From positions 1 through 33,914 of the forward strand of contig JABGPF010000021.1 of the NCBI GenBank assembly GCA_018645065.1: DNA of 33,914 nucleotides, in the 5' to 3' direction. The translations under genes and the position numbers were made by a program. Positions 10,746 to 31,049 of this stretch are shown here, one piece after another. Source of the DNA: Phycisphaerales bacterium. GTDB lineage: Bacteria > Planctomycetota > Phycisphaerae > SM23-33. The notes beneath the pieces were generated by a model. That model was not told where the DNA came from. It searched no databases and saw nothing but the letters and a program-made list of their open reading frames with translations. How positions within the stretch are numbered: position 1 is the stretch's first letter; each line of letters begins with the position of its first letter.

Positions 10746-13538
10746 ATGAATAAGTTGTCACGTATCGCGATCCTCGCTACCGTTTGTTTTGCGGTTTTGG
10801 GATCTATGTCAACCGGAGCTTCGGCGATCACGCCTGAAGGTCAAGCTCAACTCGACGCCGACTGGCTCGTGCAATGCGGTGGGAAACCGACAGCCAAGAT
10901 GGTCACCGATGAAATCGGCTGGGCGCGCGAACTGGCTGCCCGTCTGGAAAAGATCAAAGGCTGCCCCTCACTGAAGGCCGATCTGGCCAAGCTGGCCGAG
11001 CTCGAAAAGCAGATCGCCGGCGCCAAAGACGCCGAAGCGGCCAAAAAACTCTACCTCGCGGTTCGAGCAGCAAAGCGAAAGATCATGTTCGCCAACCCGC
11101 TGATCAACTTCGACAAGATCGTCCTGATCGACAACCCGTTCCCCAACGGTAAAAAAGGCGACGCGACTAACGAATGGCGTCACGAAGCTCGTCACCGCAA
11201 CGGTTACATGGCCGTTATGGGCGGAAAGCTCCTTTCGGTCGGGCTCGATCCGGGCAGTAAAGCCACAAGCCTCTTCGGCGATCGCATCGGTAGCTTCTGG
11301 CGCCCCGACGTGCACTTCAACGGTAAGAAAATCGTTGTCAGCTTCCAGCCTACCGGCCACAAGTCGTTCCACCTGTACGAAGTCGACTCAGAAGGCAAAA
11401 ACGTCAAGCAGCTCACCTTCGGCGACTACGACGACCTCGACCCGATCTACACGCCTGACAACCACATTACCTTCTGCTCGTCGCGAGCACACACATACGT
11501 TCGCTGCATGCCCATGACACACGCATACGCGGTGTCACGCTGCGACGCCGACGGAAAGAACATCTACGTAGTATCGCGTAACGGTGAGGCTGAATACATG
11601 GCCTCAGTCCTGAACGACGGTCGCGTAATCTACACCCGCTGGGAGTACACTGAAAAGGCTCTCTGGCGAATCCAGAGCCTCTGGACCATGAACCCCGACG
11701 GAACGAACGTGCAGGTGTTCTGGGGCAATCAGTCGCGCTGGCCTGACGTTCTGACAGAAGCACGAGCCATCCCCGGTTCAAACCGCGTAATGTTCACCGG
11801 TCTTGGCCACCACGACTGGTTCAACGGCTCGCTGGGCATTATCGACCCGGCAAAGGGTTTGAACTATCCCGACGGACTGACCAAAGTAACGCCTGAAGTT
11901 CGCTGGACGGAAGTCGGCGACGGACCGAAAGAAAAGACCGAATCGAAAACGTATCACAGTTGCAAGGCCTTCCGGGCCTACAAAACCCCCTACCCGCTCA
12001 GCGAAGAAGATTTCCTGTGCTCGGCGATCGTAAGCGGTGGACGCGGCGGACGCTTCCAGCTTTACCTGATGGACATCCACGGTAACCGCGAGCTGATCCA
12101 CAAGGGTAATCACAACGCTTATTACGCCATGCCTCTAGTGGCCCGCAAGGCGCCTCCGGCACTTCCCGATCGCGTCGCCTGGCCGAAAATCGGATCGGGT
12201 CAAAAAGCCGCCTCCGGCGTGCTCTACAGTAACGACGTATTCAGCAACGCGCCCAAAATCCTCAAGGAAAAGGGCAAATACATTCGCTCAGTAGTTATGG
12301 ACCCCAAGAGCTACACGACGTGGCACAAGACTGTCCAGCACGACGGACCGGCAGTCAGCGTATTCCAGGCCGATGGCGTAAAACGCATACTGGGAACCAC
12401 GCCGATCGAAAAAGACGGAAGCATCTGCATGGAAATTCCCGCCGGTATCGCCGTTTCCTTCCAGGTTCTCGACGAGAAGAAGCAGTGCATCCACGTTATG
12501 CGTTCGTTCACAGGCGTAATGCCCGGTGAAACTCGCGGTTGCTTCGGATGCCACGAATCGAAGCTGTCGACACGCGGAAACCCCGCGGCAGGGTCGAACA
12601 GCATCGCGATGAAGAAGGGCCCGAAGAAGCCCGTCGAACCGGCATGGGGATACAACACGTCGATAAGCTACACCAGGTTCGTTCAACCGGTGCTCGACAA
12701 AAACTGCGGCAAGTGCCACCAGGACCCCAAGCACAAAGCGTTCGCAAAGCTGAACATGACCTACCGCCCCTCGAAGCATCGCTGGCGCACGCGAGTTAAC
12801 ACGCGTCCTGACGATGTCAGCCCGTTCACCGAGCCTTATTACACGCTGGTTGGCGGCGGACAGGGTTGGGGCGGACGCCAGAAGAAGATGCCCCTGTCGG
12901 GCGTTTATGTTGTTGAATCGTACAACAGCGGCGGCGACGGTTCGGACCTGAAAACGCTTCCGCCCTACTCGGCGTTCTCGCCCAAGAGCACGCTGATCAA
13001 GAACGCGTCGAGCGGTGAGCATCACAAGGTTAAGGTGTCGGCTGCAGATCTCGCGATGCTGGTCGCATGGGTTGATCTGAACGGTCCGTACCTCGGCGAC
13101 GAAGAAATTCGCAATATGTACGACCCGATCTCATACGCCGCCGAGAACATCTCAGCGGTTCGACCCCGAGTGGCCACCGCGCCGATGATCGATCGCTTCA
13201 ACATCCGCCAGGACGGCGACTCAGCCAAGGTCTCCGGACCGCTGAAGCTCTCGAAAAAGGCGATCAAACAAGCCCCGCCAAGACCCAGCAAATCGCCCAA
13301 AAAGCCCAAAACGCTGGTCTACACGAAGATCCTCAAGGTTACCTACGGAGCTGGCAAGAATGTCAACGACGTTACCGCAAAGGTGACAGAGAGCGCCAAC
13401 AAAACCGGGATCATCACGATATCAAGCGAGCACAACACCCTCTTTGGCGACCCGATCAACGGGACCGTCAAGGAACTGGTTATTACGTTCGAACACAAGG
13501 GCAAGAAGCAGACCGTCAAGGCACTCCGGTCAACCTGA
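10746..13538 (+). CDS. HzsA-related di-haem c protein, paralog 2
   Basis: I chose the ATG at 10746 because AAAGGAAAA precedes it and a signal peptide begins directly there (MNKLSRIAILATV..., cleavage near GASA); an in-frame start at 10641 would put an implausible tail before the signal and would overlap the promoter. The product has 930 residues and is very close to paralog 1 through the propeller and middle domain (DWLVQCG, YDDLDPIYTPD, NQSRWPDVLTEARAIPGSNR, LGHHDWF). The haem sites are C599/C602/H603 and C654/C657/H658. The main differences are a shorter loop before LSEEDFLCSA and a different C-terminal linker. The small shared C-terminal domain spans about 852-930. It is probably periplasmic or surface-bound; the substrate is unknown. 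Confidence 0.92.
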   Translation: MNKLSRIAILATVCFAVLGSMSTGASAITPEGQAQLDADWLVQCGGKPTAKMVTDEIGWARELAARLEKIKGCPSLKADLAKLAELEKQIAGAKDAEAAKKLYLAVRAAKRKIMFANPLINFDKIVLIDNPFPNGKKGDATNEWRHEARHRNGYMAVMGGKLLSVGLDPGSKATSLFGDRIGSFWRPDVHFNGKKIVVSFQPTGHKSFHLYEVDSEGKNVKQLTFGDYDDLDPIYTPDNHITFCSSRAHTYVRCMPMTHAYAVSRCDADGKNIYVVSRNGEAEYMASVLNDGRVIYTRWEYTEKALWRIQSLWTMNPDGTNVQVFWGNQSRWPDVLTEARAIPGSNRVMFTGLGHHDWFNGSLGIIDPAKGLNYPDGLTKVTPEVRWTEVGDGPKEKTESKTYHSCKAFRAYKTPYPLSEEDFLCSAIVSGGRGGRFQLYLMDIHGNRELIHKGNHNAYYAMPLVARKAPPALPDRVAWPKIGSGQKAASGVLYSNDVFSNAPKILKEKGKYIRSVVMDPKSYTTWHKTVQHDGPAVSVFQADGVKRILGTTPIEKDGSICMEIPAGIAVSFQVLDEKKQCIHVMRSFTGVMPGETRGCFGCHESKLSTRGNPAAGSNSIAMKKGPKKPVEPAWGYNTSISYTRFVQPVLDKNCGKCHQDPKHKAFAKLNMTYRPSKHRWRTRVNTRPDDVSPFTEPYYTLVGGGQGWGGRQKKMPLSGVYVVESYNSGGDGSDLKTLPPYSAFSPKSTLIKNASSGEHHKVKVSAADLAMLVAWVDLNGPYLGDEEIRNMYDPISYAAENISAVRPRVATAPMIDRFNIRQDGDSAKVSGPLKLSKKAIKQAPPRPSKSPKKPKTLVYTKILKVTYGAGKNVNDVTAKVTESANKTGIITISSEHNTLFGDPINGTVKELVITFEHKGKKQTVKALRST

Positions 13539-13662: not shown

Positions 13663-16600
13663 ATGGTCAAGACGCCACGTATCGCCCTGCTAACCATCAC
13701 GCTGGTCACCCTGTTTATCGCGGGAGCGGCCTCTGCGGCAGCGCCAAAACCGAGTCTGAAAGGCTCCAACTGGATATGGCACAAGGGCGCGGGCCAGGCC
13801 GCAGGTACGTGGTATTTTCAGAAGGGCTTTGCGTTTCCCGCAGGTCAGAAACCTATAAGCGCCCGTCTGCTGATCACCTGCGATAACCTCTGGGTGCTTC
13901 ACGTTAACGGTACAAAAACCGCTTGGAACGCCTCGCCAGACTCATGGTCGAGTCCGCGAAATGTGGATATCACCAGGCATCTGGTGATCGAAAAGAACGC
14001 GATCGCAATCGAAGGACGAAACACCGCGCCCGGACCGGCGGGGCTGATGGTGAAGTTGATCGTCGAATTCGAAAATGTCAAACAGACATTCCAGCTCGTC
14101 AGCGACGAGACCTGGATCAGTTCATCCAAACCGGACGAGGGCTGGAACGAGAACGGTTTTACCGCTGGCGCCAATTGGGCTCCGGTCAAGGTTCTCGGAA
14201 AGTACGGGATAGCGCCCTGGGGCAAGGTGCAGGTGGGGGGCACACGCAGGCGTCCGACACGGAAACCCGCTCCTGTGATCGAGCTTGTAACGGACGAAAA
14301 AGAACTCAGCAAACCGGTCTACCAACCCGGCGCCGTTTTTGTCGGCGGCGCGGTCGGTTTGAACGTCAACCGCCAACCGATCTACCACCAGAACATCCGC
14401 GGAACCCGAGCATATTTCGAAATGGACCCCATGACGCCGGCGGCTCTGGGACGCGAACTGTGGTCCGTAATCCCGCTCGGACCCGACGGTAAAAAAACGC
14501 TGCTCTGCGACGCAGGAACCGGAACAATCGGGTCGCCAAGCGTCTCGTACGACGGAAAAACCGTATTCTTCACCATGGTGAAACCAAACGAAGCATACTT
14601 CCATATTTACAAGATCGACATGACCGCAACGGGCGACGCCGCACCAGGCAAACCCAAAAGCGTAGTGCAACTCACCGACGGACCATTCCACGACTACGAC
14701 CCCATGGAACTGCCCGACGGGCGAATCGCCTTCAGCTCAACACGAATCGGAAGCCGCGAAGAATACCACGCGAAATACGCGTCATCGCTCCACACTTACG
14801 ACCCCAAGACCAAAAAAATCCGACCGCTGACATATCACATCGTAGCCGATCGCGAACCGCGAGTAATGGCTGACGGGTCGCTGGTGTTCATTCGATCGGA
14901 CAACTTCCTGGAACGAGCGAAAGTGGAAGTGCACCTGCACCAGACTCGCATGGACGGTACTGCCGGTCAGGTAATCATCGGACCAGGGCGAAAAGGCGTG
15001 AGGCTCGATCGCGACGTAGCGGCTGAACCGGCGATGAACTGGCTCCGCAGATACGGTATAGGCAGCCCGGCGCCGATGACTGACGGGCGAGTGGCTGCGA
15101 TCAACCAGAGCGGTCTGGTGACCTCCGCCAGCGCCACTGGTATGTCGGTGGGCGGCGGATTCCTTCCGTTCGACCTGTCGCCCCTGCCCGACGGCAGGCT
15201 GCTGTGTACGTCCAAAGGGAAAAATCAGATCATCGTTTTCGACCCGAAAGACCAGAAGCCAAAAGCCATCTTCTCCATGAACGGTATCCATTCGGTAGTG
15301 CACATGGGCGCTCGCAAGAAGCCTTCTGTAATGCCTTCGATGATCGACCCCGCCGCTGAACGCCGGATCGACAAAACAGGCTTCCTCTACTGCCAAAACG
15401 TGCTCGACACACAGCACACCGCCGCCGACACGAAACGCATCCGGGCCATCCGAGTCTACGAAGGGCGACCCTTCACGCTGGAACCGACCAAAACGATCTA
15501 CGCGCACATCGGAACCGTGGGCGTCGAGCTGGGAACCGTACCGCTGGCTGCCGACGGGTCGTTCTATATCGAAGTGCCCGCCGACCGTCCGGTGGCGCTG
15601 CAGGCGATTGACGCCGAAGGCCGAGCAGTCATCAACGAGTTGTCGTGGATCTACACTCGCCCGGGCGAGCAGCGGGCATGCGTCGGCTGCCATGCTCCGG
15701 TTGATGCGGCTCCAAAAATGACGGTGGCCACCGCGATGAAAACCAAACCGATGAAGCTCACCGGACAGGGCGACCCCCACCGCTTCCGAGCGAACAACGG
15801 AGCCAACGGCGGGATCGTGAACCTGCAGCTCGATAAGTTCCGAGAAGTTGTCGGCGTGAATCTCATGACCGTGCCCAACGACGCGAGCCTCTCGACGATC
15901 AGGCGTTTGGGAATTCTTCGCAACCGATCGTCGATACCCGTGCTGGTCAAAGCGTTGAAGGACAAGAGCCCCGAGATGCGATGCGCCGCGGCGATGTCGC
16001 TTTCGGCGTGCGGTAATCGTGACGCGGTCAAACCGCTCATGGAGGCCCTGGGCGACACTAACGCCACAGTAGCCCGCGCCGCGGAAGTGGCGCTGGAGCA
16101 CCTGACGGGCAACCCCAAAGGCGGGACCGACTGGGCTGCTATCGAAAAGGCGCTGATTGGCAAAATGTCGGGCGAGGCCCAGCTGGCCAAGGCGTCTGCG
16201 GGAGCGGCGCCGAAAATCGTTATTAAGTCGGCGCTCTATGGCGTGAAGGGCAAGCCCGAAAAGCAGATGGATCTGACCGCGAAGATAAACAAACGCCTCG
16301 CCGCCGGTGAATGCACCTTCAGCGCGAGTTACAAGTTCGCCGGCAAGGATCCGGCGCCGGGAATCAACAAGACAACCGAACTGGAATACTCGCTCAACGG
16401 GAAGGTCAGGAAAGTGTCCCTTCGAGAAGGCGCCGAGTTTAACCTGATGACAGGCTCTGCAGGAAGCATTTCCACCACTAGCAGTAAGAACGGGCAGGAA
16501 GTGCATATGGCAATTGAATCGCTCGGCCATGTCGGCGGTGACGCGGGCAAGAAGGCGATTCGCGATTGGCTCAAGAACAATCCCAAGGGCGAGCTGCGAA

Positions 16601-17706
16601 TAATGATGGCCGCCATCCGCTCGCTGGGCTACCTGCAAGATCGCAAGGCGATACCCGCCCTGGTGGAGATCATGAATGCGAATCTCAATGTCCGAGGAAA
16701 AGGCGGTTGGAACGAAGGCGGATTCAATCAGAAACCGACGTATCTTTGCGCGACCGCGGCGGAAGCTTTGGGGCGCATTGGCGGAGCCGACGTGGAAAAA
16801 GCGATTCTGGCGGCGTTGGCGAAACTAGGCAATTTCGAGACCCATGTAATACATACCGGCGAGCACGGTTGGCTCAGAAGCGCACAAGCCTCGCCGAACT
16901 ACTTCCGCATGCTCGAAGCGCTCGAACGCATGAACAGCAAAGCCGGAGCCCCGCTTGCAGGACAGCTCGTCGAGTCGCTTCAGTCCGATAAGGACCGCGG
17001 GCTGCTGTACGAACTGGACACTTACGAAAAGCTGGTCGGGCGAACCGTCAAGCGCATCGGACGCATGGACGACGTTGTCGAAGCGTGCCTGGCGGTGCTG
17101 GGCGATAAGTCCGGTAACACCAAGCCCGACGCCGCACTGACCAAATCGGTATCCAAAGCCCCGCACAACGAGGGGCACATCAGGAGGCATTCAGCCCAGG
17201 CACGGGCGGCGCAGGTTATCTCAATTGTCTGCATGGACCTCAAATACGCACCGCGAATACGCAAAGTGCTGATGGCGCATCGAGCGGCGAAAGCGTCCGA
17301 AACGCGAGCGTGGGTTTGCTTCATGCTGACCCGCACACTGGGACGATTGGGCGATACCGGATCGATTGACCTGTTCATCGAAATGCTCGCCAAAGGCCCG
17401 ACAGAAGCATCGTTAGGCCTGAACCCCCCGCCAGCGCACATTATTTACAAGGCATGGCGCCCGTTCCACCGCCCCGCTGCCGCATGGTCGCTAGGCCAAC
17501 TGAAAGCAAAACAAGCTACGCCTACACTGCTGAAAACCGTTCAGGAACTCGGTAACGCATCGAGCACGCGCGAGCAAGCCGCAGCAGCACTGGGAAAAAT
17601 CGGCGACAAGACCACACTTACCGAACTGAAAAAAATCGCCGAAGAATACCCCGAACTAATGACCAGGCGAGCACTGCTGAGATCAGCGAAAAAGATCGCC
17701 AAATAG
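13663..17706 (+). CDS. Giant HzsA-related mono-haem c protein with HEAT repeats
   Basis: A 1347-residue exported protein; AAGGAAG lies 7 nt before the ATG and the signal peptide ends near residue 25 (AASA). Residues about 30-185 look like a beta-sandwich, galactose-binding-like domain (SNWIWHKG, TWYFQKGF, LHVNGT). Residues about 220-650 hold TolB-like propeller blades and the HzsA-like middle domain. A single CxxCH follows, C673-V-G-C676-H677. The second haem segment of its relatives is absent. HEAT repeats occupy about 740-835 (IPVLVKALKDKSPEMRCAAA) and about 945-1340. Between the two HEAT blocks (about 851-925) lies the small domain that ends the other two HzsA-related proteins. HEAT arrays bind proteins or large ligands, so this may be a docking member of the set. 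Terminator-separated from its neighbour upstream. Confidence 0.9.
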   Translation: MVKTPRIALLTITLVTLFIAGAASAAAPKPSLKGSNWIWHKGAGQAAGTWYFQKGFAFPAGQKPISARLLITCDNLWVLHVNGTKTAWNASPDSWSSPRNVDITRHLVIEKNAIAIEGRNTAPGPAGLMVKLIVEFENVKQTFQLVSDETWISSSKPDEGWNENGFTAGANWAPVKVLGKYGIAPWGKVQVGGTRRRPTRKPAPVIELVTDEKELSKPVYQPGAVFVGGAVGLNVNRQPIYHQNIRGTRAYFEMDPMTPAALGRELWSVIPLGPDGKKTLLCDAGTGTIGSPSVSYDGKTVFFTMVKPNEAYFHIYKIDMTATGDAAPGKPKSVVQLTDGPFHDYDPMELPDGRIAFSSTRIGSREEYHAKYASSLHTYDPKTKKIRPLTYHIVADREPRVMADGSLVFIRSDNFLERAKVEVHLHQTRMDGTAGQVIIGPGRKGVRLDRDVAAEPAMNWLRRYGIGSPAPMTDGRVAAINQSGLVTSASATGMSVGGGFLPFDLSPLPDGRLLCTSKGKNQIIVFDPKDQKPKAIFSMNGIHSVVHMGARKKPSVMPSMIDPAAERRIDKTGFLYCQNVLDTQHTAADTKRIRAIRVYEGRPFTLEPTKTIYAHIGTVGVELGTVPLAADGSFYIEVPADRPVALQAIDAEGRAVINELSWIYTRPGEQRACVGCHAPVDAAPKMTVATAMKTKPMKLTGQGDPHRFRANNGANGGIVNLQLDKFREVVGVNLMTVPNDASLSTIRRLGILRNRSSIPVLVKALKDKSPEMRCAAAMSLSACGNRDAVKPLMEALGDTNATVARAAEVALEHLTGNPKGGTDWAAIEKALIGKMSGEAQLAKASAGAAPKIVIKSALYGVKGKPEKQMDLTAKINKRLAAGECTFSASYKFAGKDPAPGINKTTELEYSLNGKVRKVSLREGAEFNLMTGSAGSISTTSSKNGQEVHMAIESLGHVGGDAGKKAIRDWLKNNPKGELRIMMAAIRSLGYLQDRKAIPALVEIMNANLNVRGKGGWNEGGFNQKPTYLCATAAEALGRIGGADVEKAILAALAKLGNFETHVIHTGEHGWLRSAQASPNYFRMLEALERMNSKAGAPLAGQLVESLQSDKDRGLLYELDTYEKLVGRTVKRIGRMDDVVEACLAVLGDKSGNTKPDAALTKSVSKAPHNEGHIRRHSAQARAAQVISIVCMDLKYAPRIRKVLMAHRAAKASETRAWVCFMLTRTLGRLGDTGSIDLFIEMLAKGPTEASLGLNPPPAHIIYKAWRPFHRPAAAWSLGQLKAKQATPTLLKTVQELGNASSTREQAAAALGKIGDKTTLTELKKIAEEYPELMTRRALLRSAKKIAK

Positions 17707-17799: not shown

Positions 17800-18594
17800 A
17801 TGGCTTGGAAACTGGGACAACAAGAATCCGCATTTATGGCCTACGTCCAGATGCGAAATATGCGAACGGTTCGTTCGGGCGATCTGATAGCACCACTCAA
17901 ATTGTCACCAAAGCAGGAGCAGAATCTCCTTAGTCGAATGAACCGGCGGGGCATAATTGCCCAAGTTCGACGTGGTTTGTATCTGGCTCCTGACAAACTG
18001 CCTTTGGGCGGTGTCTGGACGCCGGATGAGGCGTGCGCGGTCGGTGCGATCATGAGCGACAAGCGAGCTCGCTACCAGGTCACCGGTCCGAACGCCTTCA
18101 ATCACTACGGTTTCGATGAGCAGATTCCCTCGCGCATTTATGTTTACAATGACGCCATTTCCGGTCAGCGCACCATTGGGCAAATTGAGTTAACGCTCAT
18201 CAAGGTCAACCCGGGACGCCTGGGAGATACCGAGCAGGTGGAAACACCATCAGGCGACACTTTGATTTATTCATCACGCGTGCGGACGCTCGTGGACGCC
18301 GTATATGACTGGTCTCGCTTCGACAGCCTCCCTCGGGCATTCAACTGGATTCAAAGCGATATCGAGGCAAACCGCATTAACCCGATCGAGCTGGTCAAAT
18401 CGGCAGTTCGCTATAGTAACCGGGGCTCGCTCCGACGTATCGGAGCCGTTCTCGAGAGACTTGGCGCGGCCGAGAATGCCCTGAAGCTGTTGGCACGCGC
18501 CTTACCGCGGTCTGGGGCGAAGATTCCTCTCATCCCCGAGCGGCCCACGCGAGGGGTCTTGATGAAACGTTGGGGGGTGGTAAACAATGCCTGA
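17800..18594 (+). CDS. abiEi: AbiEi-type antitoxin (type IV toxin-antitoxin)
   Basis: A 264-residue protein. Residues about 8-65 form a winged helix-turn-helix (MRTVRSGDLIAPLKLSPKQE...LSRMNRRGIIAQVRRGLY), the DNA-binding half that autorepresses these operons. The rest is the antitoxin domain, with the usual YQVTGPNAFNHYGF and IYVYND blocks and a RVRTLVDAV segment. In type IV systems the antitoxin counters the nucleotidyltransferase toxin without stable complex formation. The coding sequence overlaps the toxin gene by 8 bp, so translation is coupled. No Shine-Dalgarno precedes the ATG, which agrees with a leaderless mRNA. The family was first described as phage abortive infection. Confidence 0.93.
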   Translation: MAWKLGQQESAFMAYVQMRNMRTVRSGDLIAPLKLSPKQEQNLLSRMNRRGIIAQVRRGLYLAPDKLPLGGVWTPDEACAVGAIMSDKRARYQVTGPNAFNHYGFDEQIPSRIYVYNDAISGQRTIGQIELTLIKVNPGRLGDTEQVETPSGDTLIYSSRVRTLVDAVYDWSRFDSLPRAFNWIQSDIEANRINPIELVKSAVRYSNRGSLRRIGAVLERLGAAENALKLLARALPRSGAKIPLIPERPTRGVLMKRWGVVNNA

Positions 18595-19465
18595 TCACAC
18601 CGAGTGGAATCTGCATCACGACACGGCGCTATTCCGAGAGGCGGTAAACTTCACCACCGCACGAACAGGCTTCAACCCACGCCTGATCGAGAAAGACTAT
18701 TTTTGCACCGTAGTGCTGGCGTATCTCGCGGATCGCGGTGGTGATAAACTCGCATTCAAAGGCGGAACATGCCTGGCCAAAGTCTACGCCGACTTCTACC
18801 GCCTGAGCGAAGATCTGGACTTTACGGTCCCTATCGCAACTAACGCCCCCCGAACCCAACGCAGCCAAACCGTCGCGACGACCAGAGACGCAATATCCGA
18901 GTTGCCTGATCACCTACCCGCCTTCACACTGACCCACCCGTTGACCGGCGCGAACAACTCCACGCAATACAATGGGGCTGTTGAATACAAATCGCCAACT
19001 ACAGGTCAGCCGGAAAGCATCCTTATCGAAGTCAGCATTCGAGAACCTCTGCTGACACCGGTGGTAAGAAGACCTGCGAGGACTCTACTGCTTGACCCAA
19101 TAGGCGGCGAGACCATAACGCCTGACATAGAGGTGAACTGCATCGCCATGGACGAAGCTATCGCAGAAAAGTGCCGTGCGGCGCTATCGCGACGGGATGC
19201 GGCGATACGAGATTTCTACGACCTTGATTACACCGTCTCGCACCTCGGGATAGACCTCACGAACCCAAGGATGATTGAGATGGTGCGAAGCAAGCTCTCA
19301 GTACCGGGAAACTCGTCGCCCGACGTGGGCCCGCAGCGATTGGCGAGCCTGAAACGCCAACTCAACACTCGCCTCAAAACCGTGTTGAGGGACAAGGAAT
19401 TCAAAGAATTCAATCTAAGCCGGGCATTTGCTCTTGTCACCGCGATAGCAGAACGCTTAACTTAA
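18587..19465 (+). CDS. abiEii: AbiEii/AbiGii nucleotidyltransferase toxin
   Basis: A 292-residue member of the DNA polymerase beta-like nucleotidyltransferase fold. Motif I is intact: K57, G59-G60-T61 and the S74-E75-D76-L77-D78 segment that supplies metal-binding acids. IEKDY (34-38) lies upstream, and the later conserved block has the form EKCRAALSRRD...RDFYDLDY (about 193-216). Family members are reported to use NTPs, and some relatives modify tRNA; the target here cannot be read from sequence. It overlaps the antitoxin gene. The catalytic residues look complete, so I consider it functional rather than decayed. Confidence 0.93.
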   Translation: MPDHTEWNLHHDTALFREAVNFTTARTGFNPRLIEKDYFCTVVLAYLADRGGDKLAFKGGTCLAKVYADFYRLSEDLDFTVPIATNAPRTQRSQTVATTRDAISELPDHLPAFTLTHPLTGANNSTQYNGAVEYKSPTTGQPESILIEVSIREPLLTPVVRRPARTLLLDPIGGETITPDIEVNCIAMDEAIAEKCRAALSRRDAAIRDFYDLDYTVSHLGIDLTNPRMIEMVRSKLSVPGNSSPDVGPQRLASLKRQLNTRLKTVLRDKEFKEFNLSRAFALVTAIAERLT

Positions 19466-22160: not shown

Positions 22161-23021
22161 ATGATCAAAAAAATGCTCGCCTCAGCGGTGGTTCTGTCGA
22201 TGGTTCTGCTCACCGGGACCGCGGCGGCGCCGGACAATAAACCAGTTTACCAATACACAGCCATCGCTCGGGCCAGCGAGGACATCACCGTTTCGGCGAC
22301 GATGGCGGTTCGCGTCGAGAAGGTTTTTGTCAAGGACGGTGACACCGTCAAGCCCGACCAGCCCCTCGTTCAGCTCGACGATAAGGCAGAACGCGTTCAG
22401 ATGGAGCAACTCAAGGCCCAGGCCGACGACAAAACGCACGTCGAAGCCGCTGAAGCACAACTCGCCCAGAAAAAGGTCGACCTGGCGGGAATAGTGGAAG
22501 CCAGAGAGAAAAACGCCGCCACCGAACTGGAATTGCAGCATGCCAAACTGGAAGTTACGATCTCGGCGCTTTCGCTGAAACTCTCGAAATTCGAACACAG
22601 CCAGAATCAATTGAAATACAAGCAGGCCGCGGCGCAAGTCGCTCGTCTGCTGCTCAGGGTGCCGACTTCCGACAAGGACAAACCCGATGACACGTTCAAG
22701 GTTTTCAAGGTGTTCATCGCTCGTGGTGAGTCGGTTGATCGCCTGAAGGAAGTTATACGAATCATCAAGATCGACCCGCTCCAGATCGACGTACCGGTCC
22801 CGGAAACAGTGGTCGAGAAGCTCAAGGTCAAGGTCAAACAAAACGCCGATGTTATTTTCCCGAATACCACAGATCCGCCCGTCAAGGGCACGATCATTTA
22901 CGTAGCCGATGAGATAGACGCCGCCAGCGGAACGCAAACCGTTCGGGTCGAAATACCCAACCCGACCGGACGCCCCGCAGGCAAGAAGGTCTCGGTGCGA
23001 TTCGCCCCGACGCCCCAATAA
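22161..23021 (+). CDS. HlyD/RND-type periplasmic adaptor protein
   Basis: A 286-residue exported adaptor with a signal peptide (about 1-23, AAA cleavage region). Residues about 40-75 are one half of a biotinyl-lipoyl domain (EKVFVKDGDTVKPDQPLVQLD). Residues about 78-160 form a coiled-coil hairpin rich in Ala, Glu, Gln and Lys. The second lipoyl half and beta-barrel follow (IDVPVPETVVEKLKV, DVIFPNTTDPPVKGTI), ending in TQTVRVEIPNPTGRPAGKKV. Such proteins bridge inner-membrane transporters to the envelope. No strong ribosome site is evident. It opens a five-gene operon whose later members also contain HlyD modules, so it is likely part of one complex. No transporter of RND, ABC or MFS type is nearby. 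Confidence 0.9.
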   Translation: MIKKMLASAVVLSMVLLTGTAAAPDNKPVYQYTAIARASEDITVSATMAVRVEKVFVKDGDTVKPDQPLVQLDDKAERVQMEQLKAQADDKTHVEAAEAQLAQKKVDLAGIVEAREKNAATELELQHAKLEVTISALSLKLSKFEHSQNQLKYKQAAAQVARLLLRVPTSDKDKPDDTFKVFKVFIARGESVDRLKEVIRIIKIDPLQIDVPVPETVVEKLKVKVKQNADVIFPNTTDPPVKGTIIYVADEIDAASGTQTVRVEIPNPTGRPAGKKVSVRFAPTPQ

Positions 23022-23055: not shown

Positions 23056-23409
23056 ATGGCCAAAGACACACCCGAACCCACAAAAGACACCCCGGCGGAC
23101 GCCCAGACCCAGCAGCAGACCGTACGAGTCCGCATGGATCAGCGCGACGTGAAGACCAGCTACGCAAACTCGTTCAATACTCACGCTCAAACCAACGAGG
23201 TAATCCTGGACTTCGGACTGAACATGCCCGTCCCGCCCCAGCCCGATCAGCAGCCTGAAATCCTGCTGCAAATCACTGATCGCATCATCCTGAACTACTA
23301 TTCAGCCAAGCGTTTAGCGCTTACTCTCGGCCAAGTGGTTCGACGTCACGAAGAGCGTTTCGGCGAGCTGGAACTGGACGACAACAAGCGAGTCAAGGGC
23401 GACTCATAG
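23056..23409 (+). CDS. DUF3467 protein
   Basis: A 117-residue protein; AAAGGA lies 8 nt before the ATG. A Pro/Thr/Gln-rich N-terminus is followed by the DUF3467 pattern: SYANSFNTHAQTNEVILDFG and a later ITDRIILNYYSAKRLALTLGQ helix. DUF3467 proteins are small and uncharacterised. No signal peptide or membrane segment is seen, so it should be cytosolic. It lies 34 nt after the adaptor gene and 27 nt before the GAF-HlyD fusion. A role as a small accessory subunit of this operon is inference. Confidence 0.9.
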   Translation: MAKDTPEPTKDTPADAQTQQQTVRVRMDQRDVKTSYANSFNTHAQTNEVILDFGLNMPVPPQPDQQPEILLQITDRIILNYYSAKRLALTLGQVVRRHEERFGELELDDNKRVKGDS

Positions 23410-23436: not shown

Positions 23437-25455
23437 ATGCCGCCAGAACACGCAGCTAATTCCGCGCCCGAACCGAACGGAGCGAAACTACCGACCCTGG
23501 CCCAGTTGTTCGAACAACTGAGCCGATACGACGGTCCGGTCGAAGGCTTCCTTACGCACCTGGTGCAGACCCAATGCATCGCAGCCGACGCAAACGGCGG
23601 TGCGATACTCCGCATTGCGCCTGATGGACGCCCACAGGTGCTGGCGGTTTATCCGGGCGCCGATCCGGGCTCACCGCCGCCGGTCTGGTTAGCGCGGGCT
23701 GCGGAAATCGCAGCAGAAGTCGCCTCAGCAGGCGTCACCGACGTAAGACCGCTGCACGACCCCGATGACCTCTACGGACAGCCCGTGCGAAGCCATCTGG
23801 CGCTCGTACCGCTTACCGGCGGGCAGGGCGCAAGGGGGCTGGCGGCGTACGTACTGGACAAAAATGACGAGGTCATGTTCGCCTCTCGCATCGAGCGCCT
23901 TGAACTTACCATCGTGCTGATGGGGCTGCACGAAATGCGACTTTCGCTGCAGCGGCGGAACAACGATTTGGCGAGGCTGAGGGTGTCGATGGACACGCTG
24001 GCGGCGACTAACGAGCACGAGAAATTCGCAGCGGCGGCGATGTCGCTTTGCAACGAGATGGCGTCGACCTGGAAGTGCGAACGGGTAAGCCTGGGCGTAC
24101 TAAAAGGGCGATACGTTCAAGCTAAAGCTGTCAGCGGCACCGAGAAAATAAGCCGCAAAATGAAGCTGGTTCAGGACATCGAAGCGGCGATGGAAGAGAC
24201 GCTCGACCAGGATATCGAGATTGTCGTTCCGACTGCGCCCGAGGCGACCTATGTAAGCCGAAGCGCCGGTGAGTTGTCGCGGCGCCACGGTCCTTCAGCG
24301 ATTGTCTCGCTTCCGCTCAGGCGTGAAGGAAAGCCCGTTGGCGTAATCACGCTCGAACGCCTGGCTGAAAGCCCGTTCACCGCCGAGCAGATCGAAGCGC
24401 TGCGGTTGACGTGCGAACTGGCGACGCCCAGGCTTATGGACCTGCACAAAACAGATCGCTGGGCAGGGGCGAAAGTCGCACAAGGCGCCCGCGCCGGACT
24501 CAGCACGATCGTAGGGGCCAAACACACCTGGGTCAAAATGATCGTCCTGCTGATCTGCGGGTTCCTGGCGTTCGCAATCTTCGTGGAAGGCGACTACACC
24601 GCCAGCGGAGATATGGACCTCCAGGTCAGAACCCAATACGTGATCCCCGCGCCGTTTGAGGGAATCCTCAAAACCGTGAATGTCGAGATCAACGAAGCAG
24701 TCACAGGCGAAGACCTGCCGGGCGCGACGATCCTGGCGGAAATGGACACCTCAGAACTTCGAGAACGCCTGGCCGCTGCAAAAGCTGAACGCAGCCGAGC
24801 AACAAACCAAGCCGAACAAGCCAGAAACGAAGGCAAGCAAGTTCAAGTTCAAATCGCCGAAAGCGATATCGAAAAAGCCAACGCCAACATTCATCTGCTC
24901 GAGCAGCGAATCACGCTGGCGTCGATCAAATCGCCAGTCTCCGGAGCCGTCGTCAGCGGTGACCTGAGGCGCCATCTGGGCAGGCGATACGAACTGGGCA
25001 AGGAACTTTTCCAGGTCGCCAAGATCGAAAACATGCGGGCCGAAATGCTCGTCGGCGAAGATCAAATCGCCGAAGTTATGAAAAAATACGGAGAAAGCTG
25101 CCGCCAGCGAAATAAAATCCAGCGGGAACTCGACGCCCTGGCTCCCAGCGACACCGCGCGGCGCAAGGTGCTGGAAGGCAAAATAGCTGAACTCGACAAG
25201 AAGCCAAGCGGAAGGCTCGCGGCGCTCGGACACGCCGGCAGGCACTTTGAATTCGTCATCGAGAGGATCACGCCGGTGGCGCGACCCGACGAGGGCAAGA
25301 ACGTTTTCCCGGTTCGCGTCAAGTTGCTCAAGACCGCAGCCTGGATGCGCCCTGGAATGACGGGCGTGGCGGAGATAGACATTGATCGACGCCCATACGC
25401 GTACATCTGGACGCGCCGGCTGGTTAACTGGATCCGAATGAAGTTGTGGTTGTAG
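23437..25455 (+). CDS. GAF-TM-HlyD fusion (cytosolic sensor joined to envelope adaptor)
   Basis: A 672-residue protein with an unusual layout. Residues about 20-165 look like a divergent GAF domain, about 165-192 a coiled linker, and about 195-335 a clearer GAF domain (FAAAAMSLCNEMASTWKCERV...LPLRREGKPVGVITLERL). One TM helix spans about 366-384 (MIVLLICGFLAFAIFVEG). The periplasmic part is HlyD-like: lipoyl halves about 398-440 and 493-530, separated by a coiled coil (about 440-492), then a second coil (about 545-590) and a barrel ending in MRPGMTGVAEIDI. GAF domains bind small molecules or proteins, so signal input in the cytosol could act on an envelope adaptor. The ribosome site GGGAGA is rather distant (11 nt). 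It is followed after 12 nt by the PqqD-M50-HlyD gene. Confidence 0.92.
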   Translation: MPPEHAANSAPEPNGAKLPTLAQLFEQLSRYDGPVEGFLTHLVQTQCIAADANGGAILRIAPDGRPQVLAVYPGADPGSPPPVWLARAAEIAAEVASAGVTDVRPLHDPDDLYGQPVRSHLALVPLTGGQGARGLAAYVLDKNDEVMFASRIERLELTIVLMGLHEMRLSLQRRNNDLARLRVSMDTLAATNEHEKFAAAAMSLCNEMASTWKCERVSLGVLKGRYVQAKAVSGTEKISRKMKLVQDIEAAMEETLDQDIEIVVPTAPEATYVSRSAGELSRRHGPSAIVSLPLRREGKPVGVITLERLAESPFTAEQIEALRLTCELATPRLMDLHKTDRWAGAKVAQGARAGLSTIVGAKHTWVKMIVLLICGFLAFAIFVEGDYTASGDMDLQVRTQYVIPAPFEGILKTVNVEINEAVTGEDLPGATILAEMDTSELRERLAAAKAERSRATNQAEQARNEGKQVQVQIAESDIEKANANIHLLEQRITLASIKSPVSGAVVSGDLRRHLGRRYELGKELFQVAKIENMRAEMLVGEDQIAEVMKKYGESCRQRNKIQRELDALAPSDTARRKVLEGKIAELDKKPSGRLAALGHAGRHFEFVIERITPVARPDEGKNVFPVRVKLLKTAAWMRPGMTGVAEIDIDRRPYAYIWTRRLVNWIRMKLWL

Positions 25456-25467
25456 GAGACCCAGACG

Positions 25468-27723
25468 ATGCCGATCGACCGTCCTACATTTAGTGAATCG
25501 TGGTATCGCGTGGGCGCGTTGTGCCCTCGCCTGCGGTCATCGGTGCAAGTATTCCGCCAGCACTTTCGCGGGCAGATGTGGCACGTGTTGCAGGACCCGG
25601 GGTCAAACCAGTTCTTCCGCCTGAACGATACGGGTTATCATTTTGTCGGGCTGCTCGACGGGAAAAAAACCGTCGCCGAAGTGTGGAACATTTGCAACGG
25701 ACAGCTCGGCGACTCAGCCCCCACCCAAGGCGAAGTTATCGCCCTGCTGGGCCAGCTCTACACGTCGAACCTGCTGCAGGCCGACATCCCGCCGGACGCA
25801 CAAGGACTCTTCAGACGATACAAACAACGCGTCGGACGAGAAGTACGCGGATACCTGACAAACCTGCTGTTCATCCGAATACCACTGATCGACCCGGACA
25901 GATTCCTCGAACGATGGGTCGGGATATTCGGATCAGTATTCAGCATGATAGGCATGCTCCTATGGTTCGCGATCATGTTCACAGGAGCCTACTTCCTGCT
26001 GGGACACACAAGCGAACTGGCCAGCCAGAGCGTGGGCATTCTCCAAACATCGAACCTGCCCTTCCTGGCGATCAGCTTCTGGATCGTCAAGATCGTCCAC
26101 GAATTCGGACACGGGTTCGCGTGTAAAAAGTTCGGGCTACAAGCCGGCGGCGGTGAAGTGCATGTCATGGGAATAATGTTCCTGATCTTCATGCCGCTTC
26201 CGTATGTGGACGCATCATCGGCGTGGGCGTTCAGGAGCAAATGGCATCGCGTGGTGGTCGGCGGAGCGGGGATGATTTGCGAGCTGGTGATTGCGGCGGT
26301 TGCGGCGATCGTGTGGGCGAATGTCGGGCCGGGAATGACTCAGGTCATCGCATATAACTGCATGTTCATCGCATCGGTGACCACGCTCATGTTCAACGCC
26401 AACCCCCTGCTGCGATACGACGGATACTATATCCTCTCGGACATCCTCGAGATACCAAACTTCGCACAGCGGTCCAAAAACTACCTGTACTACCTGGTGA
26501 AAAAATATATCTGGTCCGTACGCAATCCACGCAACCCAGCCAACACGCCAGGCGAAAAAACGTGGTTCGTATTCTACGGGATCGCGTCGACCATTTACCG
26601 CATGTTCATACTGGTCGTGATCTTGATGTTCCTCTCGGATCGCCTGCCCGAAGAGCTCAAGTTCATCGCCATTATCGCAGCGGCCGTTTCAGGCGTCGCG
26701 TGGTTGTGCACGCCGATATTCAAGTTCGTAAAATACCTCGCCACCAGCGGAGAACTCGCTCGCGTGCGGGGACGAGCGGTGGCCTCAACGCTACTGACCG
26801 TTACCAGCATAATAATGGTTATCGGCGTGATGCCCTGGCGAGATCGCGTTCGCGCAGAAGGCGTAGTCGAACCGCTGGGCCTGGAGGTGGTCTACTCACG
26901 AACGGACGGATTTGTGGACAACTTCCTACCGTCCGGAACGCCTGTCTCCGCCGGCGACATACTGCTAAACGCCATGCCGCCTGCAAGCGATCCGCAGGCC
27001 CGAGCAGCGTTCGTAAAGAAACTGAACGCCGAACTCACCGCCTCGCTCCGCATACTGAAAGCCGAATACGACAAGATCAAAAGACAGGAAGACTGGGCGC
27101 TGGCTGAAGGCGAACACGGCGTGGTCGCCTCGCGGATCGAAGAAGCCAAAGCCAAAGCCGAACAGATCGCCCGAATCGAAGAAGAGATAACAAACCTTAC
27201 CCTGCGAGCTCCGATCAACGGGATATGGATCTCGCCGGACGTCGATCGACTCAAAGGCAACTTCCTGCAAAAGGGCCAGCAGATCGGTTTAGTCGCCGAT
27301 CACAGCCCAAACAACCTTATAGTTCGAGCGGTCGCGTCGCAGGAAATCGGCGCGATATTCTACGAACTGCGGAACGAAAAGAACCACAAAATACCGCTGG
27401 AAATCCGCATTTTGGGACGACCAAATCCGGCGTTCGGCGGACATATAAGCAAGATACTCGACTCCGCCCAGGACGTCCTTCCCTCACCGGCGCTGGGATA
27501 CGCAGTCGGAGGGTCGGTAGTCACGCGACAGGACGATCGCCAGGGCCTGATGGCCGCAGAAGGCTTCTTCGAAATTCACGTGACCCCGCAGGCGATGGTC
27601 GACGACAAACCAATAATGCTCCTCCCGGGCCAGCGAGTCGTTGTCCAATTCGACCTGCCGGAAAAACCGCTGATCGCACAATGGTGGCGATCGCTGCTCC
27701 AACTACTACAGAAAAAACAATGA
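25468..27723 (+). CDS. PqqD-like / M50 site-2 protease / HlyD three-domain protein
   Basis: A 751-residue inner-membrane protein. GGAG overlaps the preceding stop codon, 9 nt before this ATG, implying translational coupling. Residues about 15-107 form a PqqD-like winged-helix domain (VLQDPGSNQFFRLNDTGYHF, then IALLGQLYTSNLLQ), the fold used for binding peptide leaders. About 150-460 is a multi-TM site-2 protease with zinc motif H211-E-F-G-H215 and third ligand region N312-P...D318-G (NPLLRYDGYY). About 465-735 is a HlyD-like module with lipoyl halves and a Glu/Ala coiled coil (about 508-575). Similar M50 proteins occur in peptide-toxin and RiPP operons. All catalytic residues are present. It probably cleaves or handles a peptide within the membrane; the substrate is not identified in this window. 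Confidence 0.92.
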   Translation: MPIDRPTFSESWYRVGALCPRLRSSVQVFRQHFRGQMWHVLQDPGSNQFFRLNDTGYHFVGLLDGKKTVAEVWNICNGQLGDSAPTQGEVIALLGQLYTSNLLQADIPPDAQGLFRRYKQRVGREVRGYLTNLLFIRIPLIDPDRFLERWVGIFGSVFSMIGMLLWFAIMFTGAYFLLGHTSELASQSVGILQTSNLPFLAISFWIVKIVHEFGHGFACKKFGLQAGGGEVHVMGIMFLIFMPLPYVDASSAWAFRSKWHRVVVGGAGMICELVIAAVAAIVWANVGPGMTQVIAYNCMFIASVTTLMFNANPLLRYDGYYILSDILEIPNFAQRSKNYLYYLVKKYIWSVRNPRNPANTPGEKTWFVFYGIASTIYRMFILVVILMFLSDRLPEELKFIAIIAAAVSGVAWLCTPIFKFVKYLATSGELARVRGRAVASTLLTVTSIIMVIGVMPWRDRVRAEGVVEPLGLEVVYSRTDGFVDNFLPSGTPVSAGDILLNAMPPASDPQARAAFVKKLNAELTASLRILKAEYDKIKRQEDWALAEGEHGVVASRIEEAKAKAEQIARIEEEITNLTLRAPINGIWISPDVDRLKGNFLQKGQQIGLVADHSPNNLIVRAVASQEIGAIFYELRNEKNHKIPLEIRILGRPNPAFGGHISKILDSAQDVLPSPALGYAVGGSVVTRQDDRQGLMAAEGFFEIHVTPQAMVDDKPIMLLPGQRVVVQFDLPEKPLIAQWWRSLLQLLQKKQ

Positions 27724-27736
27724 CCGGAGCACGCCT

Positions 27737-29734
27737 TTGAACGATATCGCCAGCACAACGTGGCGAATGCTCGCACAACGAACCGGTGGACGCGAACTGC
27801 CCCGCGGACTCGACGCCGCATGGGACACCGCAGCCGGTATGGCCCAAAAATTGCTGCCCAGAACCGCCCGATTCCTACGCCAGGCCGAAACCGTTCTGGG
27901 CTACGATAAAGAGTTCTCAAAACTGACCGAGGCGAAACTACGGGAACAGGCCGGCGAATACCACGATATGTTCCGACTCGGGCGAAACAGCGCCGCAGAC
28001 CTTCTAAGAGCGTTCGCGCTGGTTCGCGAAATCGCATTCCGCCAGATCGGCCTGAAGGCCTACAAGGTCCAGGTCGCTGGCGCCCTTGCGATCTACGCCG
28101 GGTCGATCGTGGAGATGGCTACCGGTGAGGGCAAAACGCTCTCGGCGACCATGCCCGCAACGGTGGCTGGTTGGTGCGGCAAGGGCTGCCACGTCATCAC
28201 CGTTAACGACTATCTGGCCAAGCGAGACGCCGAGGAGATGGGCCCGATCTACCGCTTCTGTGGGCTGAGGGTGCAGGCGATTGACCAGGAGTCGACCCCG
28301 CCGGAGCGTCGCGAGGCGTACAACTCCGACATCACATACTGCACCAATAAGGAAGTTACCGCAGACTACCTGCGCGACCGCCTGGCGATGGGACGCCTGA
28401 CGGGGCTGTCGTCGGCGCTGCTGGCGAAAATCGCCGAAGGCGACCAGAGCGGGACAGACCGCATCGTGCAGCGAGACCTGAACTACGCCATTATCGACGA
28501 AGCCGACTCGGTGCTCATCGACGAAGGCGTCACGCCCCTTATCATCTCGGGCGAAGCGCCAAACGCCGAACAGGTCCAGGCCTTCCAGGAAGGAGCCGAA
28601 ATCGCCGCGAAAATGAAACGCGACCTGCACTACAAAATCAACCACAAATACCGCGAAGTCAACATGACCAAAGAGGGCAAGGCGTTCGCTGCGAAACTTA
28701 CAGAACCGCTCGGCGGGATATGGGCCGGACAACGCAGAAGCGAAGAAATGCTCGTCCAGGCGCTCACCGCTCGCGAAATGTTCCTGCTCGATAAACAGTA
28801 TGTGATCCAGGAAGACCAGGTGGTGATCGTAGACGATTTCACCGGACGACTAATGCCCGACCGCGAATGGCGCGACGGACTGCACCAAGCCGTCTCAGCC
28901 AAAGAAAAAGTCGAGATCAAACCGCCAAAAGACACCTACGCCCGAATGAGTTTCCAGCGTTTCTTCCGAATGTACAACCGCATCTCGGGCATGACGGGAA
29001 CCGCGGTCGAAGCGTCGGGTGAGTTCTGGCAGTTCTACCACACACCGGTGGTCATCGTACCAACAAACAAGCCGTGCATACGCAAGCAACTGCCCACACG
29101 CATATACCCCACGCAAGATGAAAAATGGCAGGGCGTAATCGACGAAATCACAAAGGCACACGAAAAAGGACAGCCCATTCTCGTAGGCACACGCAGCGTG
29201 CACGACAGCGAAAGAATCTCGCTGATGCTCAACGAACTGGAGTTCGAACACGAAGTGCTCAACGCCGTCAGGCACGCAGAAGAAGCCCAGATCGTAGCCC
29301 AAGCCGGACAAGAAGGACGAATCACCGTGGCGACCAACATGGCCGGTCGCGGAACGGATATCAAACTCGGACGAGGCGTCGCCGAACTAGGCGGACTGTA
29401 CGTAATGGCCACCGACCGCCAGGAGTCCGGACGAATCGATCGCCAGCTCGCCGGGCGGTCCGGGCGAATGGGCGACCCGGGCATGGTGCGAACGTTCGTG
29501 AGCCTGCAAGACGAACTGCCCCGCCGATACGCCACGAAAACCGCTGAGTTCCTCCAGAAACGCCACCCACCTCGCGAAGGCAAGCCCCGCAACATCGCCA
29601 ACCCGATGACGAGGCGCATGTTCAACAAAGCCCAGAAACGCGCAGAACACACCGCATTCAAGCAACGCCGCGCCGTCCTGAAAACCGACCACTGGCTAGA
29701 CGAATATCTCGGCTTCGCCGGACTCGAACGATAA
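27737..29734 (+). CDS. Short SecA-like ATPase (SecA2-type paralog)
   Basis: The start is TTG at 27737 with GGAG 7 nt upstream. The protein has 665 residues, about 200-250 fewer than housekeeping SecA. Walker A is ATGEGKT (128-134), Walker B is DEAD (254-257), and the preprotein-crosslinking region is represented by the NKEVTADYLRDRL segment and its flanks. The second nucleotide-binding fold carries MAGRGTD (535-541) and GRSGRMGDPG (573-582). The sequence ends in what corresponds to the first part of the long scaffold helix (AQKRAEHTAFKQRRAVLKTD), so the rest of the scaffold, wing and two-helix-finger regions are missing. The end is a clean stop without frameshift, so this is a natural short form. 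Operon position after HlyD and M50 genes suggests a dedicated motor rather than general secretion. Confidence 0.93.
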   Translation: MNDIASTTWRMLAQRTGGRELPRGLDAAWDTAAGMAQKLLPRTARFLRQAETVLGYDKEFSKLTEAKLREQAGEYHDMFRLGRNSAADLLRAFALVREIAFRQIGLKAYKVQVAGALAIYAGSIVEMATGEGKTLSATMPATVAGWCGKGCHVITVNDYLAKRDAEEMGPIYRFCGLRVQAIDQESTPPERREAYNSDITYCTNKEVTADYLRDRLAMGRLTGLSSALLAKIAEGDQSGTDRIVQRDLNYAIIDEADSVLIDEGVTPLIISGEAPNAEQVQAFQEGAEIAAKMKRDLHYKINHKYREVNMTKEGKAFAAKLTEPLGGIWAGQRRSEEMLVQALTAREMFLLDKQYVIQEDQVVIVDDFTGRLMPDREWRDGLHQAVSAKEKVEIKPPKDTYARMSFQRFFRMYNRISGMTGTAVEASGEFWQFYHTPVVIVPTNKPCIRKQLPTRIYPTQDEKWQGVIDEITKAHEKGQPILVGTRSVHDSERISLMLNELEFEHEVLNAVRHAEEAQIVAQAGQEGRITVATNMAGRGTDIKLGRGVAELGGLYVMATDRQESGRIDRQLAGRSGRMGDPGMVRTFVSLQDELPRRYATKTAEFLQKRHPPREGKPRNIANPMTRRMFNKAQKRAEHTAFKQRRAVLKTDHWLDEYLGFAGLER

Positions 29735-29769
29735 GGCGCCAGATCAACTCTACAGGCCCGTACGCGAGC

Positions 29770-29831
29770 GACTATTTTAGTGTGAATCAAAAAATAGTCG
29801 TGACTATTTTTTGATTTATGCTAAAATAGTC
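29770..29831. promoter_or_regulatory. 62-bp nested palindrome over the AAA_14 gene promoter
   Basis: GACTATTTTAG (29770-29780) pairs with CTAAAATAGTC (29821-29831), and inside it AATCAAAAAATAGTC (29785-29799) pairs with GACTATTTTTTGATT (29802-29816), both perfectly, with only GT at the centre. GACTATTTT therefore occurs four times in alternating orientation. An extended -10 (TGCTAAAAT, 29819-29827) lies in the right half, with a weak GTGACT 16 nt upstream of TAAAAT. The ATG at 29835 follows 7 nt after the -10 box. An operator for autoregulation is likely; an AT-rich transcript hairpin is the alternative. Confidence 0.75.
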
Positions 29832-29834
29832 AGC

Positions 29835-31049
29835 ATGAAGAAGCGGACTTACTACAGGAATGCATGGGAGGAGTTCGATGCGGAAAAGCACATGGTGCTT
29901 ATTTCCGGGCCTCGGCAGACGGGAAAGACGACACTGGCCAGGGACATTGCATCGCGCCAGGCCGCGTCGGTTTACTTTAACTACGATGTCCCTACCGACC
30001 GGGCGAAATTGTTGAAAAACCCCGTATTCTTCGAGGAAACAGACCGCAAGAAAAACGATGTTCCGCTGGTTGTCCTCGATGAAATTCACAAGTACTCGGA
30101 CTGGAAGAACTATCTGAAAGGCGTGTACGATGGTTACAGCGACGCCTTTCGGTTCCTTATCACCGGTAGCGGCCGGCTGGATCTTTCACGCCACAAAGGC
30201 GATTCGTTGGCGGGACGATATCTGCACTTTCACATCTTCCCGTTCACGCTGGGGGAACTGTTCTCATCGTCAACCGCCGCGGTCTCCGCATCGCACTTGA
30301 AAACGATCCCTCAAACCAATCGTCCGGCCCGCAAGGCATGGGACACCATGTTCCACGTCAGCGGGTTTCCCGAACCGTTCATGAAGGGCACGGAGAAATC
30401 CTACAGGCGATGGGCCGCGAGCTATCACAGCCAGGTTATCCGTGACGATATCCGCGATGAATTCGCTGTCCGCCGCATCGACCGGATGGAGATGTTGTAT
30501 CTCCTGCTTGCCGACCGCGTGGGCAGTCCGATTTCGGTCGCGGCGTTGGCGGGGATATTGAAAGTGGCGCACACCACCGTCACGTCGTGGCTTGACGTGC
30601 TGGAACGGTTCTTTCTGACGTTCAGACTTCGCCCGTACAGCAAGCGTGTCTCGCGCAGCCTCGTGAAAGATTCAAAACTCTACTTCTACGACTACCGCCG
30701 TATCGACGACCCTGGCGCGCGGTTCGAGAACATGATTGCCGTTGAACTTAACCGAGCGGTAACCCTCTGGCGTGATTTCGGTCTGGGCGATTTTCAGCTT
30801 TTGTATCTCCGGAACAAGGAGAAGCAAGAGGTCGATTTTATCGTGACTGAAGGCTCCGAACCGCTATTCATGGTCGAAGCCAAGCTTTCGGACCCCACGG
30901 TCGGTCCGCAACTGAAAAAGTTCCAGAGCATGCTCAACGTCCCGGCGATACAATTGGTCAACCAGCCTGGGATCGGGCGACGCATCACCAATGGCAAAAA
31001 CACGATTCTTGTCGCCAGCGCGGCCGACTGGCTCGCAGGATTGCACTGA
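29835..31049 (+). CDS. AAA_14/DUF4143 ATPase
   Basis: The ATG at 29835 is preferred over the in-frame TTG at 29811, which lies inside the palindrome. The protein has 404 residues. Walker A is GPRQTGKT (25-32) and Walker B is VVLDEIH (79-85), followed by a sensor-like ITGSGRLDL. A central winged-helix-like segment (ISVAALAGILKVAHTTVTSWLD) and the C-terminal DUF4143 domain follow. The C-terminal part has a PD-(D/E)xK-like signature, EVDFIV followed by FMVEAKL. Proteins of this family are widespread, often found singly in accessory regions, and their cellular role is not known. No Shine-Dalgarno is visible, consistent with a leaderless transcript. Confidence 0.93.
   Translation: MKKRTYYRNAWEEFDAEKHMVLISGPRQTGKTTLARDIASRQAASVYFNYDVPTDRAKLLKNPVFFEETDRKKNDVPLVVLDEIHKYSDWKNYLKGVYDGYSDAFRFLITGSGRLDLSRHKGDSLAGRYLHFHIFPFTLGELFSSSTAAVSASHLKTIPQTNRPARKAWDTMFHVSGFPEPFMKGTEKSYRRWAASYHSQVIRDDIRDEFAVRRIDRMEMLYLLLADRVGSPISVAALAGILKVAHTTVTSWLDVLERFFLTFRLRPYSKRVSRSLVKDSKLYFYDYRRIDDPGARFENMIAVELNRAVTLWRDFGLGDFQLLYLRNKEKQEVDFIVTEGSEPLFMVEAKLSDPTVGPQLKKFQSMLNVPAIQLVNQPGIGRRITNGKNTILVASAADWLAGLH

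Follow-up and report, generated by a model that had tools for sequence, protein, structure and literature searches.

The short SecA gene examined here is the last in a run of five genes on the same strand of contig JABGPF010000021.1, from a member of the Phycisphaerales; the window is the whole stretch of DNA analyzed, 33,914 nucleotides long. The run encodes, in order, a HlyD protein, a DUF3467 protein, a GAF-HlyD protein, a PqqD-M50-HlyD protein, and the short SecA (Table 1). The gene located 3' of the short SecA gene (29811 to 31049) encodes an unrelated AAA_14/DUF4143 ATPase, and a palindrome, CAAAAAATAGTC-GT-GACTATTTTTTG, was noted between the two (29735 to 29830). Elsewhere in the window are a type IV toxin-antitoxin pair (an AbiEi-type antitoxin at 17800 to 18594 and an AbiEii nucleotidyltransferase toxin at 18587 to 19465) and tandem paralogues with lipoprotein-like N termini and no Pfam match (6289 to 8352, 687 aa, and 8458 to 10554, 698 aa). 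Large predicted secreted proteins with a relative of the hydrazine synthase alpha middle domain are encoded at 3196 to 6108 and 13663 to 17706 (Pfam) and, with a weaker match seen by NCBIfam only, at 10641 to 13538.

Table 1 Genes of the short SecA operon, with positions in the window
Feature	Position	Strand	Description
HlyD-family periplasmic adaptor	22161..23021	+	286 aa
DUF3467 protein, recurrent operon member	23056..23409	+	117 aa; predicted three strands and a long helix
GAF domain, one transmembrane segment, and HlyD periplasmic adaptor	23437..25455	+	672 aa
PqqD-like N-domain, multi-pass M50 (site-2-protease-like), and C-terminal HlyD-like region	25468..27723	+	751 aa
Short (secondary) SecA	27737..29734	+	NBD1, PPXD, NBD2, and first scaffold-helix segment only; 665 aa

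The short SecA frame begins with a TTG start codon and runs for 665 codons with zero internal stops. A reading made from the sequence alone (here, the sequence-only reading) had held that both nucleotide-binding folds and the preprotein-crosslinking region are intact, and this is borne out by the retained motor motifs and by matches to the Pfam models SecA_DEAD (residues 44 to 431, 9e-99), SecA_PP_bind (residues 280 to 386, 6e-26), and P-loop_SecA (starting at residue 446, 2e-57). Like the canonical SecAs of E. coli, B. subtilis, and T. maritima, to which it is ~40% identical, the protein has NBD1, the PPXD, NBD2, the ATPase motor motifs, and the start of the scaffold helix; unlike them, it lacks the rest of the scaffold, the wing, the two-helix finger, and the C-terminal tail, and it scores under the cut-offs of the NCBIfam SecA equivalog models (644 of the 814 and 642 of the 800 bits required). 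The same reading had reported the end of the scaffold, the wing, and the finger as absent, and this was confirmed. In the SecA_SW Pfam model, only positions 2 to 36 of 200 were matched, under the cut-off. Alignment with full-length SecAs placed residue 655 opposite residue 653 of the 901 in E. coli SecA and residue 604 of the 838 in Priestia SecA; the protein stops within the first scaffold helix, at about E. coli residue 653. Comparison of a predicted structure with SecA had been suggested as a check, and the AlphaFold model (mean pLDDT, 83.9; pTM, 0.78) ended in a single helix (residues 623 to 658) and fitted SecY-engaged SecA at a TM-score of about 0.8, the top matches being 6itc (0.81) and 5eul (0.80) over ~620 columns. 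Finally, tblastn with three canonical SecA C termini found no wing or finger remnant downstream of the gene or elsewhere in the window, which rules out a split gene with a nearby remnant.

An ordinary SecA that was recently truncated, through an assembly error or as a pseudogene, could in principle give a frame of this kind, and an assembly error ending the gene at 29734 had been named as something that would overturn the sequence-only reading. Nothing was found in favor of such an artifact, and several lines of evidence refute it, so that we regard it as vanishingly improbable. In addition to the absence of a C-terminal remnant from the window, two independently deposited Phycisphaerae metagenome-assembled genomes (MAGs) carry complete copies of the same short gene at 81 to 86% identity; the same compact form (625 to 714 aa) was found in 38 homologues, from Planctomycetota and from alphaproteobacterial plasmids; and all 30 of the planctomycete short SecAs that were aligned end at the same point, within a few residues. 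These 30 proteins also keep, without exception, Walker A (GEGKT), the DEAD-type Walker B, motif III, motif V, and the motif VI arginines. Across a sample of 199 genomes from the phylum, SecA frames of ~630 to 740 codons recur alongside the normal ones of 850 to 1,250 codons. We then compared 62 SecAs in a tree, built by a quick method, rooted at the midpoint for drawing only, with long branches on a few rows, and made with the sequences of Kamneva 2015 left out. The 38 short proteins were split from the 24 full-length ones, which include the SecA of the same genome and those of other planctomycetes, E. coli, Priestia, S. meliloti, and Tsukamurella, by a branch with an SH-aLRT value of 100. Since no full-length SecA falls among the short ones across this fully supported branch, the short SecA has a separate ancestry and is not a recent truncation. 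Eight short SecAs from alphaproteobacterial plasmids formed one clade among the planctomycete ones, a pattern that fits a family of considerable age, part of whose spread came through horizontal transfer.

A full-length SecA is present elsewhere in the same genome, as a 1,234-aa frame (counted from its start codon) on contig C262 (G000:C262). The sequence-only reading had pointed to such a second copy as the sign that the short one is specialized, and on this result the short SecA is a specialized paralogue. The NBD2 of the full-length protein (L063:3128-6832, G000:C262) carries, between motifs V and VI, a cysteine-rich insertion, CCINCTQYQDDPSCKKCYKV, that is absent from the other aligned SecAs. 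In another genome (G030), which otherwise has one full-length SecA, a strongly diverged SecA-like frame (22% identity, 659 codons; G030:C12:29030-32604) adjoins an M50-HlyD gene.

The presence of a second SecA beside a full-length one recalls the accessory SecA2 proteins of Mycobacterium, Listeria, and C. difficile. The short SecA differs from these in scoring under the cut-off of each of the four NCBIfam SecA2 models and in its length, 665 residues compared with 705 to 771 in solved SecA2 chains. It also differs from SecA2-SecY2 systems in that a single SecY, and no second one, was found in each of the 11 genomes searched, its own among them. Another structural parallel is with SecA-N68 and E. 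coli C-terminal deletions (5k9t; PMC5603524, PMC5456053), which likewise consist of the motor and PPXD without the C-terminal helical domains; in contrast to these laboratory fragments, which do not translocate alone, the short SecA occurs naturally, has dedicated partner proteins, and keeps slightly more of the scaffold helix. In an E. coli SecA deletion series, ATPase activity peaked around fragments 1-619 to 1-632, fragments of 643 to 669 were critical for interacting with SecYEG, and SecA on its own needed sequence to about residue 831 in order to translocate (PMC5456053); SecA-N68 was a constitutive ATPase that bound SecYEG and showed no translocation (PMC5603524). By analogy with this series, a protein that ends at the equivalent of about residue 653 would be expected to be a ready ATPase that depends on a partner for translocation.

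That partner might be SecYEG itself. In such an arrangement, which we think rather unlikely, the short SecA would be an accessory motor of the SecA2-only type that serves some of the preproteins, full-length SecA would provide the finger and wing in trans within a mixed dimer, and the HlyD and M50 proteins would act later, on the periplasmic side. The genome's complement of one SecY and one full-length SecA suits this arrangement, as does a genome (G107; L049, G107:C1:4916500-4934500) in which the genes for a full-length SecA (936 aa) and a short SecA (626 aa) lie ~5 kb apart on the same strand; moreover, SecA-N68 binds SecYEG with constitutive ATPase activity, and N- and C-terminal pieces of SecA, themselves inactive, can show complementation with liposomes (PMC5603524, PMC5456053). 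Set against this, the missing parts include the finger, which engages SecY, and the wing, which engages the lipid surface, in the SecA-SecY complex (PMC6599042), the operon partners that are conserved belong, as membrane and adaptor proteins, to another type of secretion and not to Sec, and the candidate client leaders described below mostly lack the hydrophobic core of a signal peptide. The sequence-only reading had offered two ways out for a motor without a finger, a different mechanism or a neighboring subunit acting as the finger. No finger sequence was found elsewhere in the window, and its interpretation is partly supported: given the missing finger and the full-length SecA elsewhere, a mechanism other than the finger working in SecY is likely. 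We prefer the M50-HlyD protein over SecYEG plus full-length SecA as the partner of the short SecA, and the conserved operon of HlyD-type and M50 genes tells more about how the motor may work.

The order of the operon is kept across planctomycetes and alphaproteobacterial plasmids, and in most of the close relatives examined, the M50-HlyD gene adjoins the short SecA gene or sits near it. Among more distant planctomycete short SecAs, it is often apart, and several have no partner genes nearby. At the level of whole genomes, an M50 homologue was found in 23 of 24 genomes with a short SecA (the exception being G071, in which it was not found anywhere) compared with 1 of 13 genomes without one. DUF3467 also recurs in the cassette, in planctomycetes and in at least five plasmid loci. 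A SecB-like chaperone role for this protein was considered and is not supported: a Foldseek comparison of its AlphaFold model with the PDB gave nothing under an E value of 0.4, and SecB was not among the 50 matches shown. The PqqD-M50-HlyD protein is a candidate membrane partner, channel, and leader peptidase. Hydrophobic segments were seen in its sequence, Pfam identified PqqD (4e-7) and, weakly, Peptidase_M50, and the nearest curated model was the NCBIfam daptide HExxH protease (7e-46, under the cut-off); no convincing relative was found among known structures. Its HExxH motif (H211) and the NxxPxxxxDG motif of its second zinc site (N310, D318) are intact, and both zinc histidines, the catalytic glutamate, and the second-site aspartate are kept in all 18 of the aligned homologues. 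Given this conservation, the M50 protein probably works as an intramembrane protease and is not an inactive pore.

Kamneva, Poudel & Ward 2015 described secondary SecA_DEAD domain proteins encoded with type I secretion-related loci, and in their proposal, SecA takes the place of the type I ATPase, with the M50 protein as a possible pore (PMC4452313). The short SecA of the window is a further member of that family, which, with its operon partners, is thus already published: it too is a second SecA_DEAD protein that lacks all or most of SecA_SW, has a full-length SecA elsewhere in the genome, and groups apart from full-length SecA in a tree, and its neighbors are likewise M50/HlyD, GAF/HlyD, and HlyD proteins (OEP genes also occur in some of those loci). 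DUF3467, the PqqD domain, the active site, the giant proteins, and LEPR are absent from the main text of that paper (PMC4452313) and are added here; the new elements are the hypothesis that LEPR-XLL proteins are the clients and the finding that the protease site of the M50 protein is invariant. Compared with a type I secretion system (HlyB-HlyD-TolC), the cassette shares HlyD-type adaptors, TolC in some loci, and very large, repetitive candidate clients, but it has a SecA-type motor and an M50 membrane protein with no ABC gene seen in the operon, and the proposed tag on its clients is N terminal, not C terminal. Among the window proteins scanned, we found no ABC domain and no TolC. Candidate TolC partners are encoded elsewhere in the genome, which has 17 OEP-domain matches, and in one related locus (L066), a TolC gene lies downstream in the same gene run.

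The invariant M50 site could also be taken to mean that the operon serves maturation or quality control, with some peptide or membrane protein being processed by the PqqD-M50 protein and with the short SecA as a helicase-like unfoldase, not a secretion motor. The PqqD-like domain would suit such a role, as would the nearest curated model, a peptide-maturation metalloprotease, even though the match is under the cut-off. The two or three HlyD-type adaptors and the TolC of the L066 locus instead point toward export across the envelope, and genes for giant proteins of surface type are adjacent in all eight plasmid loci; we consider the maturation role improbable.

In the plasmid loci (Pseudosulfitobacter, Methylosinus, Pontibrevibacter, Mesorhizobium, Alisedimentitalea, Rhizobium, Ensifer, and Sinorhizobium), a giant gene lies directly upstream of the cassette on the same strand in 8 of 8 cases, although the Ensifer and Sinorhizobium loci are near-identical and the number of independent cases is thus nearer seven. 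Five of these giants are annotated (8,148 to 12,737 aa), at distances from the cassette ranging from a 4-base overlap to 177 bases; the other three are unannotated open frames of 9,027 to 10,175 codons. All eight have an [LFM]EPRxLL motif near the N terminus, NCBIfam model NF012209 (LEPR-XLL) scored above its cut-off in each of the four scanned, and the C-terminal ends of the five that were scanned for this resemble RTX and large-adhesin repeat proteins. The association extends to the planctomycetes, in which LEPR-XLL was above the cut-off in 22 of the 46 genomes that have the M50 gene and in 2 of the 153 that lack it (Fisher P of ~2e-14, uncorrected for phylogeny). Since about half of the M50-positive genomes had no LEPR-XLL match above the cut-off, other clients or diverged leaders must exist. 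Within the class to which the window belongs, matches of at least about 16 bits were found in all 10 genomes with the M50 gene, and none at an E value of 0.1 in the 3 genomes without it; in one genome (G160), a LEPR-XLL gene sits beside the short SecA gene on the same 8-kb contig.

The genome from which the window comes has 14 LEPR-XLL matches above the cut-off. Twelve of these frames were fetched, and in each the motif is near the N terminus, at most 94 codons from the 5' end of the frame; it mostly reads LEPRLLL, with S, A, D, or N as the next residue. In 11 of the 12, no strongly hydrophobic stretch precedes it. For this genome, the link to a substrate is one of co-occurrence only: the window has no LEPR-XLL gene, and its scanned proteins gave zero regular-expression matches and zero NF012209 matches. 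A literature search, with subscription papers and preprints outside it, found nothing tying LEPR-XLL to SecA or to the cassette. On the strength of the genomic linkage and co-occurrence, we propose that LEPR-XLL proteins may be the clients of the short SecA cassette.

Taken together, we envisage a type I-like export machine in which the short SecA would be the ATPase, a cytosolic motor and clamp, and in which this protein and the PqqD-M50-HlyD membrane protein would replace the usual ABC transporter. As clients we propose surface proteins of large or giant size that lack an obvious Sec signal peptide and carry a LEPR-XLL leader at the N terminus. This leader would be bound by the PqqD domain and cut at the M50 site. 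The ATP-driven clamp (PPXD and NBDs) would then feed the unfolded chain into or along the M50-HlyD partner, which may itself be the channel, so that the SecY-specific parts (wing and finger) would be unneeded. The GAF-HlyD and HlyD proteins would be the periplasmic adaptors, and a TolC encoded elsewhere would provide the exit through the outer membrane. The activity of the motor, the channel role of the M50-HlyD protein, the recognition and cleavage of the leader, and the choice of LEPR-XLL proteins as substrate are all inferences. For the full model, an ABC-less, SecA-driven exporter of LEPR-XLL proteins, we judge the chances to be about even; the finding that E. coli SecA fragments of similar size hydrolyze ATP and cannot translocate without the sequence to about residue 831 (PMC5456053) counts against it, as do the planctomycete short SecAs with no nearby partner genes, the lack of an M50 homologue in G071, and the M50-positive genomes in which LEPR-XLL stays under the cut-off. 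We suggest more tentatively, as a possibility that leans toward the doubtful side, that this is a distinct route, combining a SecA motor without wing or finger, an ABC-less HlyD/TolC conduit, leader cutting by PqqD-M50, and giants of 8,000 to >12,000 residues, in both Planctomycetota and Proteobacteria.

If the mechanism is as proposed, a SecA motor would work without its SecY-specific parts and power a different membrane conduit, and the role of the clamp would be separable from that of the two-helix finger. It would also account for the exit of very large LEPR-XLL proteins from the cell and would give their N-terminal motif a function. The cassette is carried on plasmids of Rhizobium, Sinorhizobium, Methylosinus, and relatives of Roseobacter, which makes these ideas testable in cultivable bacteria.
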